Part shown: positions 2,129-12,406 of the stretch, piece after piece
How the letters are laid out: each line of letters opens with the position of its first letter
How positions within the stretch are numbered: the stretch's first letter is position 1
Source of the DNA: Halomonas sp.
GTDB lineage: Bacteria > Pseudomonadota > Gammaproteobacteria > Pseudomonadales > Halomonadaceae
Direction: 5' to 3'
Length of the DNA stretch: 64,000 bases
NCBI RefSeq assembly: GCF_017515565.1
Contig: NZ_JAFWFN010000010.1
Span: forward strand, 40,005-104,004
The notes under the pieces: model-generated
What the model saw: the letters and a program-made list of their open reading frames with translations, nothing else
Database searches by the model: none
What the model was told of the DNA's origin: nothing
Made by a program: the position numbers and the translations under genes

Positions 2129-2173
2129 CTAGGGACGACCCTAGCAGGCCAAGCAACCCGCGGGACGACCCGC
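2129..2173 (+). promoter_or_regulatory. Guanidine-II (mini-ykkC) riboswitch, two ACGA-loop hairpins
   Basis: Two perfect hairpins stand in tandem. P1 is CTAGGG-ACGA-CCCTAG (2129-2144, 6 bp). P2 is GCGGG-ACGA-CCCGC (2160-2173, 5 bp). A 15-nt linker separates them. Paired small hairpins with identical ACGR loops are the definition of the mini-ykkC motif, which binds two guanidinium ions through loop-loop contact. P2 ends 20 nt before the ATG at 2194, which suits control of translation initiation. The weak ribosome site (AGG at 2184-2186) fits regulated initiation. The element lies inside an operon whose other genes match guanidine breakdown. Confidence 0.9.
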
Positions 2174-2193
2174 CTTTGTTTGCAGGCAGTGCC

Positions 2194-5100
2194 ATGTCCA
2201 TCAATAAAACGTTTAGCAAAGTACTGATTGCCAATCGCGGTGCCATCGCAGCGCGCATTTTACGCACCCTCAAAGCGTTAGGTGTAGGCAGCGTGGTGGT
2301 TTACGCCGACGCTGACCGGGACGCTCCCTACGTTCACCAGGCCGATGAGGCCTATTCCCTAGGCGAAGGCTCGGCAAGTGATACCTACCTTAATATCGAC
2401 AAGCTGATCGCGATTGCCAAACAAAGCGGTGCCCAAGCTGTGCACCCCGGCTACGGCTTTCTGTCAGAGAACACCCGCTTTATTGAAGCCTGCGATGCTG
2501 CGGGCCTTACCTTTCTGGGCCCCACCGCCGATCAGATTGAACAGTTTGGCCTAAAACACCAGGCCCGCGCCCTGGCCGAAAACGCCGGTGTGCCACTGGT
2601 GCCCGGTTCCAAACTTCTCGAAAGCGTTAAAGAAGCCCTCACCAGCGCCGAGCAGATTGGCTACCCGGTCATGCTCAAATCCACCGCCGGTGGTGGTGGT
2701 ATCGGTATGCAGGTGTGCCAAACTGCCGCCGAGCTAGAGCGTGCCTTTGATTCGGTGAAAGGCTTAGGTGAGCGCAACTTCGGCGACGGCGGCGTGTTTC
2801 TTGAAGCCTATATCGCTCGCGCCCGCCACTTGGAAGTACAGCTGTTTGGCGACGGCCAAGGCAGCGTGGTCGCCCTCGGTGAGCGCGACTGCTCCACTCA
2901 GCGCCGCCACCAAAAAGTGCTTGAAGAGTGCCCGGCCCCCAACCTGCCTGAATCCGGTCGCCAGGCGCTGCACGCCACGGCGGTTCAGCTGGGTAAAGCG
3001 GTCAACTACCGCAGCGCCGGAACCGTCGAGTTTATTTACGATGCCGAGCGGGAAGCGTTCTATTTTTTAGAGGTCAATACCCGCCTCCAGGTCGAGCACG
3101 GCGTCACCGAGATGGTATATGGCGTCGATATTGTTGAGTGGATGGTTCGCCTGGGTGCAGGCGAACTGCCCGCCCTTGAGACACTCACCAACGGCCTCAC
3201 TCCCCGCGGCCATGCCGTACAAGCGCGCCTCTACGCCGAAGATCCCGCCCACGACTTCCGCCCCAGCGCAGGCTTGCTGACGGAGGTCGATTTCCCCAAG
3301 GCTGACGGCCTACGCATCGACCATGCCATTGAAGCCGGGCTGGAAATATCAGCGCTGTTTGACCCTATGCTCGCCAAAGTGATTGTTCACGCCGACAGCC
3401 GTGGCGCGGCTATCGAACAGCTAGCAGATACCCTGGATAATGCTAGCGTTTATGGTATTACCACCAACCGCACTTGGCTTGCCCATGCGCTGCGCGCAGA
3501 GCGTTTTCGTGATGCCGACCTGGACACTCACTGGCTGACCACCCTGGAGTGGGCACCGCCCGCCATTGAGGTGATCGCCCCCGGCACAATGACGACAATT
3601 CAAGACTACCCCGGCCGCCAGGGCCACTGGGATGTGGGCGTGCCGCCGTCCGGGCCCTTTGATGACTGGTCGTTTCGTCTTGGCAATCGCTTACTGGATA
3701 ACCCCGCCGATGCCGCAGGGCTTGAAATCACCCTAACCGGCCCGACGCTGCGTTTTCACCGCGCCACGCAAATTGTACTGGCGGGTGCCGAGCTTCCTGC
3801 AACGCTGGATGGCGAAGTGGTGGCTTTTTGGCAGGTCATTGATATTCCTGCGGGCGCTACCCTTAGCCTGGGCAAGGCCGCTGCGGGTGCTCGCGCTTAT
3901 CTATTAGTGCGTGGCGGCATTGAGTGCCCGCACTATTTAGGCTCGCGCAGCACCTTCACCCTGGGACAGTTTGGCGGCCATGGCGGCCGTGCGCTTAGAA
4001 GCGGCGATATGCTCGATTTACCCGCGCTTGCCGCCACCTACCAAGCGCAGTTGGATGAGGCGTTAATACCTACCTTTGGTCATCAAGCCAGCGGCAAAAC
4101 CTGGCAAGTGGCCGTGCTTTACGGCCCCCACGGCGCGCCAGACTTTTTTACCAATGACGATATCGAGCGCTTTTTTGACCACAAATGGGAAGTCCACTAC
4201 AACTCCAGCCGCACCGGCGTTCGGCTGATTGGGCCGCGTCCCGAGTGGGCCCGGGCCGACGGCGGCGAGGCGGGACTGCACCCCTCCAACATTCACGATA
4301 ACGCCTATGCCTTCGGCACTATCGACTTTACCGGCGATATGCCGGTGATTCTTGGCCCCGACGGCCCTTCGCTAGGTGGTTTTGTCTGCCCGGCCACCGT
4401 GGTGCGCGCTGAGCGCTGGAAGCTTGGTCAACTCGCCGCGGGCGATAAAGTGCGCTTTGTGCCGGTCAGCCTTGCTACAGCCCGCAGCCTGGAAGAGCGC
4501 CAGCTCGCTCAGTTGGAGTCCCTGACCGCGAACCCTGTTGAAGATATTCAGCCAGAACGCGACACCCCAATCCTGCGCGATGTAGCCGCCGAACAGGCCG
4601 GTGAGCGCATCGTTTACCGCCGCGCCGGGGATGATTTCCTGCTGATTGAGTTTGGTGCGATGGAGCTGGATATCGCGCTGCGCTTCCGCGTTCACGCCTG
4701 GATGCTATGGTTACAGGAACACTCGCTGCCCGGCCTACGGGAACTAACCCCCGGCATTCGCTCGCTGCAGGTTCACTACGAACCGCTGGAGCTTAGCCTT
4801 GATGCTTTGCTAGCGCACCTTCACAAAGCTGAGCAGGCGCTGGTCGATGTGGAGTCGCTGGAAGTTGAGTCGCGAGTGGTGCATCTACCGCTCTCCTGGG
4901 ACGACCCCGCCTGCCACGAAGCGATCGATAAATACCAACGCAGCGTGCGTCCGGATGCGCCCTGGTGCCCGAGCAACCTCGACTTTATTCGCCGCATCAA
5001 CGCCCTGGCAAGCGAACAGCAAGTGCGCGATATCGTCTTTGATGCCCGCTACCTGGTCATGGGTCTGGGAGACGTTTATCTGGGCGCCCCAGTGGCCACA

Positions 5101-5808
5101 CCGCTAGATCCGCGCCAGCGCTTGGTCACCACCAAATACAACCCGGCCCGCACCTGGACCGCGGAAAACTCCGTGGGCATCGGCGGTGCCTATCTATGCG
5201 TTTACGGCATGGAAGGCCCCGGCGGCTATCAGTTTGTTGGTCGCACGCTGCAAATGTGGAACCGCTACCGCACCACCCAGCACTTCGAGAACCCTTGGCT
5301 GCTGCGCTTTTTTGATCAGCTGCGCTTTTATCAAGTCAGCCACGACGAGCTGGAGCAAATTCGCCGCGACTTTCCCCACGGTCGTTTCGAGCTGCCCACC
5401 GAAACAGCCCACTTTCGTCTGGCGGACTACCAAGCCGACATCGACAAAAACGCCGATGCCATCGAAACCTTCCGCACCAAGCGCGAAGCCGCCTTCCAGG
5501 CAGAGATGGCCGCTTGGCGAGCCAATGGCCAGTTCACCTTTGAGGATCAAGCACCTAATAGCGCGGAAATCGAAACCTTAGGCGACGATGAAATCGGTAT
5601 CGAAAGCCCGGTAACCGGCAGCCTTTGGAAACTGCTGGTCAAAGAAGGCGAGCATGTTAGCGCTGGTCAGCCGGTGGCGCTGGTCGAATCCATGAAAATG
5701 GAGGTAGATGTAACCGCTCACTGCGCGGGTCGCGTTGCCAGGCTTCCGATTAGCGAAGGGGCGTCAATGGGGCCTGGGCAGCCGCTGGTGGTGCTCACCA
5801 GTGAGTAA
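2194..5808 (+). CDS. Guanidine carboxylase (biotin-dependent, urea carboxylase family)
   Basis: A 1204-residue multidomain enzyme. In order it has a biotin carboxylase (start FSKVLIANRGAIAARI, ATP-grasp with STAGGGGIGM, EVNTRLQVEHGVTEM), KipA/AHS2-like and KipI/AHS1-like carboxyltransferase halves (MTTIQDYPGRQGHWDVG; LGDVYLGAPVATPLDPRQR), and a C-terminal biotinyl domain with the biotinylation motif ESMKME (Lys about 1168). An in-frame GTG at 2119 would place riboswitch hairpins in the coding region, so the ATG at 2194 is preferred. Homology alone says urea carboxylase. The guanidine-II riboswitch and the two deiminase genes argue for carboxylation of guanidine to carboxyguanidine. I could not map a residue that separates the two substrates. 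Confidence 0.9.
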   Translation: MSINKTFSKVLIANRGAIAARILRTLKALGVGSVVVYADADRDAPYVHQADEAYSLGEGSASDTYLNIDKLIAIAKQSGAQAVHPGYGFLSENTRFIEACDAAGLTFLGPTADQIEQFGLKHQARALAENAGVPLVPGSKLLESVKEALTSAEQIGYPVMLKSTAGGGGIGMQVCQTAAELERAFDSVKGLGERNFGDGGVFLEAYIARARHLEVQLFGDGQGSVVALGERDCSTQRRHQKVLEECPAPNLPESGRQALHATAVQLGKAVNYRSAGTVEFIYDAEREAFYFLEVNTRLQVEHGVTEMVYGVDIVEWMVRLGAGELPALETLTNGLTPRGHAVQARLYAEDPAHDFRPSAGLLTEVDFPKADGLRIDHAIEAGLEISALFDPMLAKVIVHADSRGAAIEQLADTLDNASVYGITTNRTWLAHALRAERFRDADLDTHWLTTLEWAPPAIEVIAPGTMTTIQDYPGRQGHWDVGVPPSGPFDDWSFRLGNRLLDNPADAAGLEITLTGPTLRFHRATQIVLAGAELPATLDGEVVAFWQVIDIPAGATLSLGKAAAGARAYLLVRGGIECPHYLGSRSTFTLGQFGGHGGRALRSGDMLDLPALAATYQAQLDEALIPTFGHQASGKTWQVAVLYGPHGAPDFFTNDDIERFFDHKWEVHYNSSRTGVRLIGPRPEWARADGGEAGLHPSNIHDNAYAFGTIDFTGDMPVILGPDGPSLGGFVCPATVVRAERWKLGQLAAGDKVRFVPVSLATARSLEERQLAQLESLTANPVEDIQPERDTPILRDVAAEQAGERIVYRRAGDDFLLIEFGAMELDIALRFRVHAWMLWLQEHSLPGLRELTPGIRSLQVHYEPLELSLDALLAHLHKAEQALVDVESLEVESRVVHLPLSWDDPACHEAIDKYQRSVRPDAPWCPSNLDFIRRINALASEQQVRDIVFDARYLVMGLGDVYLGAPVATPLDPRQRLVTTKYNPARTWTAENSVGIGGAYLCVYGMEGPGGYQFVGRTLQMWNRYRTTQHFENPWLLRFFDQLRFYQVSHDELEQIRRDFPHGRFELPTETAHFRLADYQADIDKNADAIETFRTKREAAFQAEMAAWRANGQFTFEDQAPNSAEIETLGDDEIGIESPVTGSLWKLLVKEGEHVSAGQPVALVESMKMEVDVTAHCAGRVARLPISEGASMGPGQPLVVLTSE

Positions 5809-5878: not shown

Positions 5879-7702
5879 ATGACACCACCTTTACCACTCG
5901 ACATCAAAAGCCTTCATACCGCCTACCAGCAGGGTGAACTCACCCCTGCAGCATTAATCGACCAGCTACTCGCACAAGCTGAAAGTCACGGTAAAGAGCC
6001 TGCTTGGATTACCCGCCTGAGTCGCGAGCAGTTGGCGAGCTATTTGAAACGTCTGGAAGGCGAGACGCCGGAAACCCTGCCGCTTTATGGTATTCCATTT
6101 GCGATGAAGGACAATATTGACCTCGCAGGGATACCCACCACCGCAGGCAGCCCGGCCTATGCTTACACGCCCACGGAAAATGCTTTTGTAGTGCAGCAGT
6201 TGATCGATGCGGGCGCGATTCCCATGGGTAAAACCAACCTGGATCAGTTCGCGACCGGGTTAGTAGGCGAGCGGGCACTGGAAGTGTATGGTACGCCTGC
6301 TAATGCTTTTGACCCGACGCTGGTGCCAGGCGGCTCCAGCAGCGGCTCTGCTGTGGTCACTGCGGCCGGCATGGTCAGCTTTGCGCTGGGCACCGATACC
6401 GCCGGCTCAGGCCGCGTGCCCGCCTGCTTTCACAACTTGTACGGGGTTAAACCCAGCCTGGGGCTGCTTAGCACCCGGGGCGTGGTTCCCGCCTGCGCCA
6501 CTTTGGATACCATCAGCCTATTTGCGCTTACCGCTGACGATGGTGCCAAAGTGCTAAATGTTACCGCTGCCTACGATGACCAATGTGCCTGGTCGCGCCA
6601 ACATGATTTTGCGGTACATGGCAAACGCTACAGCAAAGCACCCGCCGCGTTTCGATTTGGGGTGCCATTAGAATCCCAGTGGCAAACCGACGCGGCCTAT
6701 ACCCAAGGCATGCAACAAGCGATTGCGGAGCTGGAAGCCTTGGGGGGTGAAAAGGTCGAGCTGGACTGTTCGCCATTACTGGCGGCAGCGCGTTTACTTT
6801 ATGAAGGCCCCTGGGTGGCCGAACGCTACCATGTGATTCGTGAGCTGATGGAGAGCAACCCGGATGCGGTACACCCGGTGACTTTTCAAATCACCCAGGG
6901 TGGCGCAACGCCCTTGGCGGTAGACGCCTTCGATGCGCGCTATAAACTCGCCGAGTATAAGCGCCAGTCCGACGCACTAATCAGTCAGGTAGATGTGATG
7001 CTCACGCCTACCACGGTCACGCATCCGAGCAAGGCCGAGGTAGCGGCGGATCCTATTGGCGTTAACTCCCGCCTAGGCACCTGGACCAACTTTATGAACC
7101 TGCTCGACTACAGCGCCCTGGCCGTACCGGTGGGCTTTAGCGAGCGCGAACTGCCGGTGGGCGTTACGCTATTCGGACCAGTATTTGCAGACTTAACGCT
7201 GCTCTCCCTTGCCCGTGCCCTGGAAGCACGCCTGATGCTGCCGCTAGGCGCGACCGGCATTCCACACCCGCCGTTAGCGGAACTCCTCGCGCATGCACTG
7301 GATGGCAGCATGGAGCTGGTGGTATGCGGTGCGCACTTAAAAGGCCTGCCGCTAAACCACCAGTTAACTCAGCGGGGCGGTGTATTGGTGAGCACCACCC
7401 ACAGCGCCCCGCGTTATAAGCTATTTGCCCTGGCAGGCGGGCCGCCCAAACGCCCGGCAATGCTACGTGATGAGAACGGTCAAGCCATTGAGGTAGAAGT
7501 GTGGCGTCTGCCTATCGAGACCCTGGGTAGCTTCTTGGCGGGCATACCCGCCCCGCTTGGCTTAGGCCAGGTAGAGCTTGCCGACGGCAGCTGGAAGTGC
7601 GGTTTTATCTGCACCGCAGGGGCGCTGAACGAAGGCGGTGAAGCTGCGGACATTACTGAGTTTGGCGGCTGGAGGGGGTGGCTGGCGAACCAATCTGAGT
7701 GA
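5879..7702 (+). CDS. atzF: Allophanate hydrolase
   Basis: A 607-residue amidase-signature enzyme with a C-terminal extension typical of AtzF. It hydrolyses allophanate to ammonia and CO2, the last step of both urea-carboxylase and guanidine-carboxylase pathways. The Ser-Ser-Lys machinery is visible: Lys77 in FAMKDNIDL, the serine run GGSSSGSA at 151-158 and the nucleophile region TDTAGSGRVPA (Ser177). The C-terminal part (from about residue 480) is the separate AtzF C-terminal domain. The ATG at 5879 follows a TAGGA ribosome site. The gap from the carboxylase is 70 nt without an obvious terminator, so it belongs to the same operon. A terminator hairpin follows. Confidence 0.94.
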   Translation: MTPPLPLDIKSLHTAYQQGELTPAALIDQLLAQAESHGKEPAWITRLSREQLASYLKRLEGETPETLPLYGIPFAMKDNIDLAGIPTTAGSPAYAYTPTENAFVVQQLIDAGAIPMGKTNLDQFATGLVGERALEVYGTPANAFDPTLVPGGSSSGSAVVTAAGMVSFALGTDTAGSGRVPACFHNLYGVKPSLGLLSTRGVVPACATLDTISLFALTADDGAKVLNVTAAYDDQCAWSRQHDFAVHGKRYSKAPAAFRFGVPLESQWQTDAAYTQGMQQAIAELEALGGEKVELDCSPLLAAARLLYEGPWVAERYHVIRELMESNPDAVHPVTFQITQGGATPLAVDAFDARYKLAEYKRQSDALISQVDVMLTPTTVTHPSKAEVAADPIGVNSRLGTWTNFMNLLDYSALAVPVGFSERELPVGVTLFGPVFADLTLLSLARALEARLMLPLGATGIPHPPLAELLAHALDGSMELVVCGAHLKGLPLNHQLTQRGGVLVSTTHSAPRYKLFALAGGPPKRPAMLRDENGQAIEVEVWRLPIETLGSFLAGIPAPLGLGQVELADGSWKCGFICTAGALNEGGEAADITEFGGWRGWLANQSE

Positions 7703-7797: not shown

Positions 7798-8184
7798 TTA
7801 TATTTTTCTAATCGGGCCTGGATATTGAGCCACCAGCTCATCCGCAGTAAGCAATAAAAACCCCTCAGCTTCTGCCTGGGCCACCAAAATTCGATCAAAG
7901 GGATCTTTGTGAATACTAGGTAAATGAGCAACGTTAAGTGTATGCAGTGAACTGATAGGGAGCTCTAAATAGCCATTATCCATCAACCCTCTTCGCAACA
8001 AGTGAGGATCCACGTGAAAATCATGGCGTTGCAGGCTGTTTTTGATCACCACCTCCCAGATGCTGGCAGCGCTAAAATAGAGTCTGTTGTTATCATCGTT
8101 AATCAAAGATAACGCTTCAGCAGATAACTTCTCTGGCTCTAACGCCGCCCAGAGCAAAATATGTGTGTCCAGAAGCAGATTCAC
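7798..8184 (-). CDS. VapC-type PIN-domain toxin
   Basis: A 128-residue PIN-domain ribonuclease, the toxin of a type II toxin-antitoxin pair. Acidic residues of the active site are visible: Asp6 in LLLDTHILLW, Glu in SIWEVVIK, Asp in DPFDRILVAQA and Asp in LLTADELV. I chose the GTG at 8184. A strong GGAGG lies at the right distance and sits inside the last codons of the antitoxin gene. A TTG 12 nt further upstream would leave no ribosome site. The toxin starts 1 nt after the antitoxin stop, so translation is likely coupled. PIN toxins usually cleave tRNA or rRNA; the target here is unknown. Confidence 0.88.
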   Translation of the reverse strand: MNLLLDTHILLWAALEPEKLSAEALSLINDDNNRLYFSAASIWEVVIKNSLQRHDFHVDPHLLRRGLMDNGYLELPISSLHTLNVAHLPSIHKDPFDRILVAQAEAEGFLLLTADELVAQYPGPIRKI

Positions 8185-8185
8185 G

Positions 8186-8425
8186 TCAGCCTCCAAACAT
8201 CTCGGCTATTTCTTTCTGCCCCATCCGATCAAAGTCATCAGGTACTTTAAACTGGCCTGCCAGGAAACCTAGTCGCTTCTGCTGACCAGGTGCAGGGCTG
8301 TCAATGGCCGTCACACGTGCCATCGGTTTACCTGCTTTGGCAATGATAAACCCCTCCCCCTCGGCAGCCCTTGCGACCAACTGCGACAAGCGCGTTTTAG
8401 CTTCATGAATATTGATAGCTTCCAT
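8186..8425 (-). CDS. Phd/YefM-family antitoxin partner of the PIN toxin
   Basis: A 79-residue protein beginning MEAINIHEAKTRLSQLVARA, typical of the Phd/YefM DNA-binding fold, followed by GEGFIIAKAGKPMARV. The C-terminal third (from about residue 50) is the usual flexible toxin-binding tail. A GGAGG ribosome site lies just before the ATG. Antitoxin first, toxin second, is the normal order, and the antitoxin is expected to neutralise the toxin and repress the shared promoter. This is a Phd-type antitoxin with a VapC-type toxin, a common hybrid pairing. Confidence 0.88.
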   Translation of the reverse strand: MEAINIHEAKTRLSQLVARAAEGEGFIIAKAGKPMARVTAIDSPAPGQQKRLGFLAGQFKVPDDFDRMGQKEIAEMFGG

Positions 8426-11400: not shown

Positions 11401-12246
11401 TCAGTCGGTTTTGGGTGTATCGGCACGCTGGGTAAGCGCGGCTTCCATACGGTTAAGCTGGCTGCGCAACTCTTTTACATCGGCACGCAATCCTTGCATT
11501 TCTGCAGCCTCCCCCTCGCCGCTTTCCAAGTCAATCAGCGCGCTCTCTTTTTGCATAACGTCCAGCACAATACCAATCATCATATTCAGGAAAATAAACG
11601 CATTGAGAAATATGAACGTCAGGAAGTAGATCCAGGCGTAGGGGTAGTATTCCATGGTGGGGTAAAGCACCGCGGTTGCCCAGCTCTCAAAGGTGGCTAC
11701 CTGGAACAGCGTCAGCATAGCGAGGGCAATATTTCCCCACAGTTGCTCATCCACGTCGTGGAAGATAAAACTGCCGATGGCGGCGTAAATATAAAAAATA
11801 ATAAACATCAGCAGCGCAACATAGCCCATGCGCGGAATCGACTTAACCAATGACACCAGCAATAGGCGAAGCTCTGGAATCATCGACACCAAGCGCAGCA
11901 CCCTGAAGATTCTTAACAGGCGCGCTAGCAGCACCATCTCCGAATCATCCATGGGTATGAGGCTGGCGGTCACAATCAGGAAATCAAAAATATTCCAGCC
12001 CTTTTTAAAGAAGCTGATTAAGTTTTTCTCTGCCGCCATACGGATCAGCAGCTCAACCAAAAAGAACACCGTGACCGCGACATCTAAGTACATAAGCCAC
12101 TGTTCAAACTGGCTCGCTTCATCATAGGTGCGCGCCCCTATCATCAGGGCCGACACGACGATAATGGCAATAACCACTGTTTCAAACAGCTTATTACTGC
12201 GCAGCTGTTCGAAGCGGGCTTGCCAAGTAGTAAAGGATTCACTCAT
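11401..12246 (-). CDS. Voltage-gated sodium channel (NaChBac/NavBac family)
   Basis: A 281-residue six-helix ion channel, one quarter of a homotetramer in the inner membrane. The S4 voltage sensor has arginines every third residue (Arg109, 112, 115, 118 in [13 protein letters not shown]). The selectivity filter TFESWA (185-190) is close to the TLESWA of NaChBac, indicating Na+ selectivity through Glu187. After S6 ([13 protein letters not shown]) comes an acidic neck and a C-terminal heptad-like stretch, the usual tetramer coiled coil. The ATG at 12246 is preferred to a GTG 33 nt upstream. It lies directly upstream of leuA on the same strand. It would suit a halophile, but its role here is unknown. 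Confidence 0.9.
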
Positions 12247-12406
12247 GGAGCAGGGGTTCTCTAGGGGTGTAATCGGCACACTTTATACCAAATAATTGGC
12301 CGTTCCACAGGTGTTGGTAGGTTTTGATTTCGGCGTATCCGCTAGTGGTCGATATCACTTTCCGGTAAGCTCCTCCCGATTTAACAGCCTGGTTTGAGGT
12401 GGATAT

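Follow-up and report, generated by a model that had tools for sequence, protein, structure and literature searches.

Why should a guanidine-responsive riboswitch lie inside an operon, between a deiminase gene and the carboxylase gene? The question is raised by a 64,000-nucleotide stretch of Halomonas sp. DNA (herein referred to as the window; 64 kb), in which the initial annotation, working from the letters of the sequence, had recognized two perfect hairpins with identical ACGA loops directly before a carboxylase start and had called them a Guanidine-II (Gd-II) riboswitch. Our analysis indicates that this element is very probably a translational ON switch for the guanidine carboxylase gene gca, lying in the gca leader of a guanidine-assimilation operon and operating behind a Guanidine-I (Gd-I) riboswitch. 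The features on which the argument draws are the following (coordinates are those of the window, except for the last, which lies in L002, the stretch upstream of it).

1–736, + strand: ABC transporter ATPase, 3′ part, with the 5′ end upstream of the window (family model)
733–1464, + strand: UAAP1, DUF1989, by position cgdA of the published operon (TIGR03425, 296.6 bits, cut-off 205.95; PF09347)
1480–2118, + strand: UAAP2, DUF1989, by position cgdB of the published operon (TIGR03424, 334 bits, cut-off 284.7; PF09347)
2127–2173, + strand: Guanidine-II riboswitch aptamer, mini-ykkC (RF01068, 43 bits)
2129–2144, + strand: P1 hairpin, CTAGGG-ACGA-CCCTAG, 6 bp, 0 mismatches (sequence, hairpin scan)
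2145–2159, + strand: linker, 15 nt (sequence)
2160–2173, + strand: P2 hairpin, GCGGG-ACGA-CCCGC, 5 bp, 0 mismatches (sequence, hairpin scan)
2184–2186, + strand: AGG, weak Shine-Dalgarno sequence of gca, 7 nt before ATG 2194 (sequence; best anti-Shine-Dalgarno duplex −3.1 kcal/mol)
2194–5808, + strand: gca, guanidine carboxylase, urea carboxylase family (TIGR02712, 1800 bits, cut-off 1303.85)
5879–7702, + strand: atzF, allophanate hydrolase (TIGR02713, 729.7 bits, cut-off 511.05)
L002:7764–7886: Guanidine-I riboswitch (RF00442), ~4.2 kb upstream of Gd-II and outside the window (cmscan, 81.3 bits, gathering 63)

The identity of the element is secure. The covariance-model search that the initial annotation had proposed as a check returned the Rfam Guanidine-II family (RF01068) at 2127–2173 on the + strand with 43.0 bits, above the gathering score of 32 (cmscan, Rfam 15; E 3.2e-5 for 64 kb, both strands and 4227 families), spanning the full model (positions 1–48), and no other Rfam family rose above its cut-off within the window. 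Across the genome (3.76 Mb in 86 contigs, 97.6% complete), with 150 of 208 first-look candidates scored, no Guanidine-II match at E ≤ 0.001 emerged besides the window element (E 4.5e-7). When both strands of the window were scanned simply for pairs of hairpins with ACGR loops, stems of 4 bp or more and a spacing of 3–45 nt, a single site likewise came up, 2129–2173; the extent first assigned to the element thus holds for the hairpins, which are free of mismatches as described, whereas the family model begins at 2127. The Guanidine-II consensus consists of two stem-loops with ACGR tetraloops. Linkers in the class range from 7 to 40 nt (PMC7544219), and the window element, with a 15-nt linker and two ACGA loops, agrees with both. 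It shares with the mini-ykkC class the paired ACGR-loop hairpins, the variable linker and the start codon close downstream, and we saw no material difference between them; the gene context is also that of the class, directly 5′ of the carboxylase in a UAAP1-UAAP2-carboxylase-allophanate hydrolase operon. The window element is a true Guanidine-II riboswitch, to which we ascribe guanidinium binding by analogy with the internal element of Vreelandella boliviensis.

The annotated position is equally well founded, as the Gd-II gap is bounded by the UAAP2/cgdB stop codon at 2116–2118 and the gca ATG at 2194. A GTG at 2119 does open the carboxylase frame 5′ of Gd-II, and the frame runs from there through the riboswitch; we set translation from this codon aside, since the leader varies in length and sequence among relatives, and the conserved coding match starts at ~2212, past ATG 2194. 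Upstream of the window, L002 encodes an NMT1-like binding protein, a permease and the full ATPase (family models), all 3′ of the only Gd-I found in the genome, so that the operon reads Gd-I, binding protein, permease, ATPase, UAAP1, UAAP2, Gd-II, carboxylase, allophanate hydrolase. Spacing and strand suggest that these genes form one transcript. TIGR02712 matches carboxylase copies both with and without riboswitches, and guanidine rather than urea is the presumed gca substrate, given the presence of two riboswitches and of paired deiminase genes. Because Gd-I precedes the whole operon, the transporter and deiminase genes lie behind one guanidine switch and gca behind two; the early inference that guanidine control falls only on the carboxylase side, with deiminase and transporter levels set separately, was therefore incomplete, Gd-I lying outside the window. 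Farther along the window, on the − strand, a PIN-domain protein (PF01850, 48.6 bits) has a start overlapping the end of a 79-residue open reading frame at 8186–8425, the two together (7798–8425) presumably forming a VapBC-type toxin-antitoxin pair, and positions 11401–12279 (−) encode a 292-residue Ion_trans family channel protein (PF00520, 147.8 bits).

How the aptamer would act on gca is a matter of its leader. We gathered two sets of leaders (45 and 66), of which 106 could be parsed and 84 were distinct, and took the most upstream in-frame ATG as the start codon. The distance from the end of P2 to that codon is 9–24 nt in 83 of the 84 distinct leaders, a spacing consistent with control of ribosome access. 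In the window, CAAGCAA (2150–2156) of the linker can pair with TTGTTTG (2176–2182), possibly extending P2 up to the Shine-Dalgarno sequence (fold); among the 23 leaders of the window's type (window included) this pairing is full in 10, reaches 6 bp in 2 and is absent or otherwise in 11. In 19 of these 23 leaders the tract C[TC]TTGTTTGCAGGCA (window 2174–2188) is exact, although their P1 and linker vary greatly; it might perhaps be a U-rich stretch that recruits ribosomes. Pairing was then compared between own and permuted partners in 47 clusters, with 8 leaders having fewer than 12 nt after P2 set aside. The linker paired with its own leader no better than with permuted ones (3203 of 5000 permutations as good), and together with the full pairing in only 10 of 23 leaders this led us to reject the linker as a general anti-Shine-Dalgarno element; within the subclade, CAAGCAA may play such a role. 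The P2 3′ strand likewise gave no signal (2774 of 5000), and the signals of the P1 5′ strand (532 of 5000) and of the three pieces taken together (536 of 5000) were weak; the P1 3′ strand showed a weak excess (104 of 5000), but, this being one of five tests, we do not claim it as a leader partner. Modelled accessibility of the Shine-Dalgarno sequence in the window was unchanged (0.58 vs 0.58) with the hairpins imposed and the linker freed, the kissing-loop state being outside the model; over the 47 clusters its mean went from 0.49 to 0.66, with a rise above 0.2 in only 17. Folding tests on the window and the 47 clusters thus did not demonstrate an expression platform. The ligand-bound loop-loop state lies beyond these folding models, and the translational mode accordingly takes its support from the published class, described as a translational ON switch (PMC12186494), and from the position of the aptamer.

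The best-surviving alternative is that Gd-II acts mainly on transcript fate, through decay or Rho-dependent termination in the cgdB–gca gap, rather than directly on ribosome binding, and so sets the mRNA level of gca and atzF. In its favour, P2 followed by CTTTGTTTGC scored as terminator-like, and relatives whose linkers are otherwise unlike retain this T-rich tract. The V. boliviensis study also points out that, in genes under riboswitches, translational control may be coupled to mRNA level (PMC12508155). The terminator-like match is, however, at chance level (1 found, 0.6 expected in shuffles), for which reason we rejected an intrinsic terminator at P2, and the window's type covers only 23 of 45 leaders. 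In addition, P2 belongs to the ligand-bound form, so that such a terminator would switch expression off, against the ON behaviour reported for the class (PMC12186494). We therefore consider control through transcript fate unlikely and retain the translational switch as the preferred reading. No internal promoter was found in 1850–2350 by a sigma-70 pattern. Around Gd-I (L002:7500–8000), simple patterns, with terminator loops limited to 3–8, gave neither a promoter nor a terminator-like site before the first gene, and the transcriptional mode of Gd-I is therefore taken from print.

A second alternative treats the aptamer as a relic from a time when gca and atzF were a unit of their own with it at the front, so that today it would contribute little beyond the control by Gd-I. 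This view can be set against the family, which we sampled as 250 genomes drawn evenly from a larger group (Rfam run with stricter filters). Guanidine-II occurs in 81 of these genomes (85 matches) and Guanidine-I in 47, and the carboxylase is above cut-off in 54, as 58 full-length gene copies. Gd-I lies 4.1–4.8 kb upstream of the carboxylase in 46 of the 58 copies; in 45 of these 46, Rfam places a Gd-II ending 15–52 nt before the conserved coding match, and in the remaining one (G026), unlisted by the Rfam search, the two hairpins are plain by eye. For the 12 remaining copies, the upstream region contains neither a Gd-II within 1 kb nor a Gd-I within 15 kb; these are probably true urea carboxylases. 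Conversely, 46 of the 47 Gd-I matches precede a carboxylase above cut-off (the exception, G006, is at a contig start), and 40 of the 85 Gd-II matches are not in front of one. The combination of Gd-I with an internal Gd-II is hence the standard layout for carboxylase operons in the family. Such constancy (46 of 46 Gd-I carboxylase operons, with loops that read ACGA or ACGG and P1 stems that change), together with ligand binding by the V. boliviensis internal element (PMC12508155), argues against a relic, in whose favour stand some operons lacking an internal Gd-II (five Marinobacter loci and L147, L166 and L168); we judge it highly improbable.

These exceptions come from a set of named loci, the best 80 of at least 584 relatives chosen by UAAP2 protein, in which near kin consequently dominate. 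In 66 of these best 80, Gd-II (scanned for as hairpins closed by G-C pairs, with ACGR loops and stems of 4 bp or more) separates the deiminase gene from the carboxylase. A simple motif scan found Gd-I in 77 of the 80 and gave none in L137, L146 and L159; cmscan shows it in L146 and likewise gave none in L137. Where Gd-I is 3–4.6 kb upstream, 62 of 66 loci among the best 80 have the internal Gd-II; where it is ~1.5 kb upstream, only 2 of 11 do, or 2 of the 9 with a carboxylase motif. L145 and L167 gave no such motif within 1.5 kb. Kinship confounds this comparison, as five of the 11 short-spacing loci are Marinobacter. Another two of the 11 are Azospirillum, in which Gd-II-like hairpins stand before the deiminase genes instead. 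In the Marinobacter loci (L155, L161, L169, L170 and L172; Gd-I ~1.5 kb upstream) the simple scan gave no internal Gd-II, as did cmscan for L155, and only 5–26 nt separate the UAAP2 stop from the conserved carboxylase motif; in L147, L166 and L168 cmscan gave Gd-I but no Gd-II. A class-wide sample is less uniform and counts against the main reading: 31 genomes yielded 32 carboxylase matches, with both switches at only 10, Gd-II only at 7, Gd-I only at 8 and neither at 7 (3 of the 32 are below cut-off, contig ends hide some elements, and of 38 Gd-I rows the 23 of possible relevance were used).

Three loci outside this pattern deserve a separate description. The Azospirillum sp. TSO35-2 locus (L150:4486–4747) has a single leader before a UAAP1-like start, with Guanidine-I at 4486–4606 (88.3 bits) and, 73 nt past it, a pair of ACGR-loop hairpins with perfect 7-bp stems, joined by 32 nt (4680–4747, simple scan); this resembles two guanidine switches in mixed tandem, and cmscan scores the hairpins as Guanidine-II at only 25.2 bits (cut-off 32), with a different first stem. 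The order is alike by simple scan in Azospirillum sp. B506 (L162), where cmscan confirmed Guanidine-I and gave no Guanidine-II above cut-off. In Roseospira navarrensis (L111), a Guanidine-II of 33 bits (4663–4716) precedes a UAAP1-like start, not the carboxylase, with Guanidine-I ahead at 1502–1615.

Sequence change within the aptamer was counted over 28 of 31 distinct aptamers, the other three having been excluded for carrying more than two eligible ACGR sites. P1 shows variation, affecting both strands of the stem, at pairs 3 to 6 counted from the loop, where pairing is standard in 27, 28, 23 and 22 of the 28. The constancy of the ACGR loops and G-C closing pairs in this count is by construction, as the filter demanded both, and P2 is nearly invariant and so provides no covariation evidence; its loop is ACGG in 5 of the 28. 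That two perfect hairpins arose by chance in a GC-rich intergenic gap can practically be dismissed: P2 is short (5 bp) and GC-rich and the fold energy of the element is unremarkable (z −1.9; 9 of 200 shuffles equally good), but the covariance score is well above cut-off, the match is unique in the genome and its place is conserved in relatives.

We hypothesize that the operon would work as a two-switch system. This logic and the modes of the two switches are inferred, whereas the aptamer, its place, the Gd-I partner and their joint conservation are observed directly. With guanidine present, Gd-I at the operon front presumably lets transcription through; the ligand (guanidine and, judging by V. 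boliviensis, probably methylguanidine too) would bind both ACGA loops of the internal Gd-II, the loops would pair together, and gca translation would open, such that the carboxylase would be made in quantity only if both sensors agree. The initial annotation also counted the allophanate hydrolase among the tuned genes, but a translational switch at gca could reach atzF, 70 nt past the gca end, only via polarity, coupling or mRNA stability. More speculatively, and with the spacing counts above in mind (62 of 66 against 2 of 11), long operons that begin with transporter genes may need the internal Gd-II as an additional gate working on its own. It would prevent leaky transcription from yielding the costly carboxylase and would also answer methylguanidine, which Gd-I ignores, even where, as in this genome, no MgdH-like protein was found; we regard this as a tentative suggestion, more doubtful than not. 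In V. boliviensis on ammonium, the carboxylase and allophanate hydrolase were among the three operon proteins to remain detected, at about a thousandth of the level (PMC12508155); proteins of genes with both switches are thus still detected, and these data offer no argument for an extra-tight gate. The element offers a clear instance of two unrelated RNA folds that each read the same ligand on a single transcript, and the family survey, which documents both the constancy of the Gd-I/Gd-II pairing and the layouts without it, is a guide to strain choice.

The closest published system is the operon of V. boliviensis LC1, where Gd-I occupies the 5′ leader and Gd-II, as an internal element, separates cgdB from gca. 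In-line probing gave apparent KD values for guanidine of 44 uM (Gd-I) and 93 uM (internal Gd-II) and for methylguanidine of 83 uM (internal Gd-II), and operon proteins were highly upregulated with either compound (PMC12508155). That operon and the window operon share the Gd-I leader, the ABC transporter genes, cgdA/B, Gd-II before gca, and atzF; they differ in that V. boliviensis carries mgdH and mgdL between gca and atzF, where the window has a 70-nt gap. The window genome also has no relative (E ≤ 0.001) of a V. sedimenti 2OG-Fe(II) dioxygenase taken from the mgdH position (the L095 query, termed MgdH-like from gene position and Pfam 2OG-FeII_Oxy), while G187 (77%) and G198 (apparently the query's own genome) match it. 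The internal Gd-II is therefore independent of mgdH, being kept in a genome where, at that threshold, the MgdH-type enzyme of methylguanidine demethylation was not found. In Raoultella terrigena, Erwinia rhapontici and Klebsiella michiganensis, Gd-I goes with importer and deaminase genes and Gd-II with the carboxylase and allophanate hydrolase genes immediately downstream (PMC12186494); the riboswitches are split as in the window, in a different taxon. An internal site had at first appeared to depart from the usual riboswitch at the front of an operon. Internal it is, yet this placement is usual among near relatives, and the two-riboswitch layout with an internal Gd-II is already known, having been published for V. 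boliviensis and for enterobacteria.
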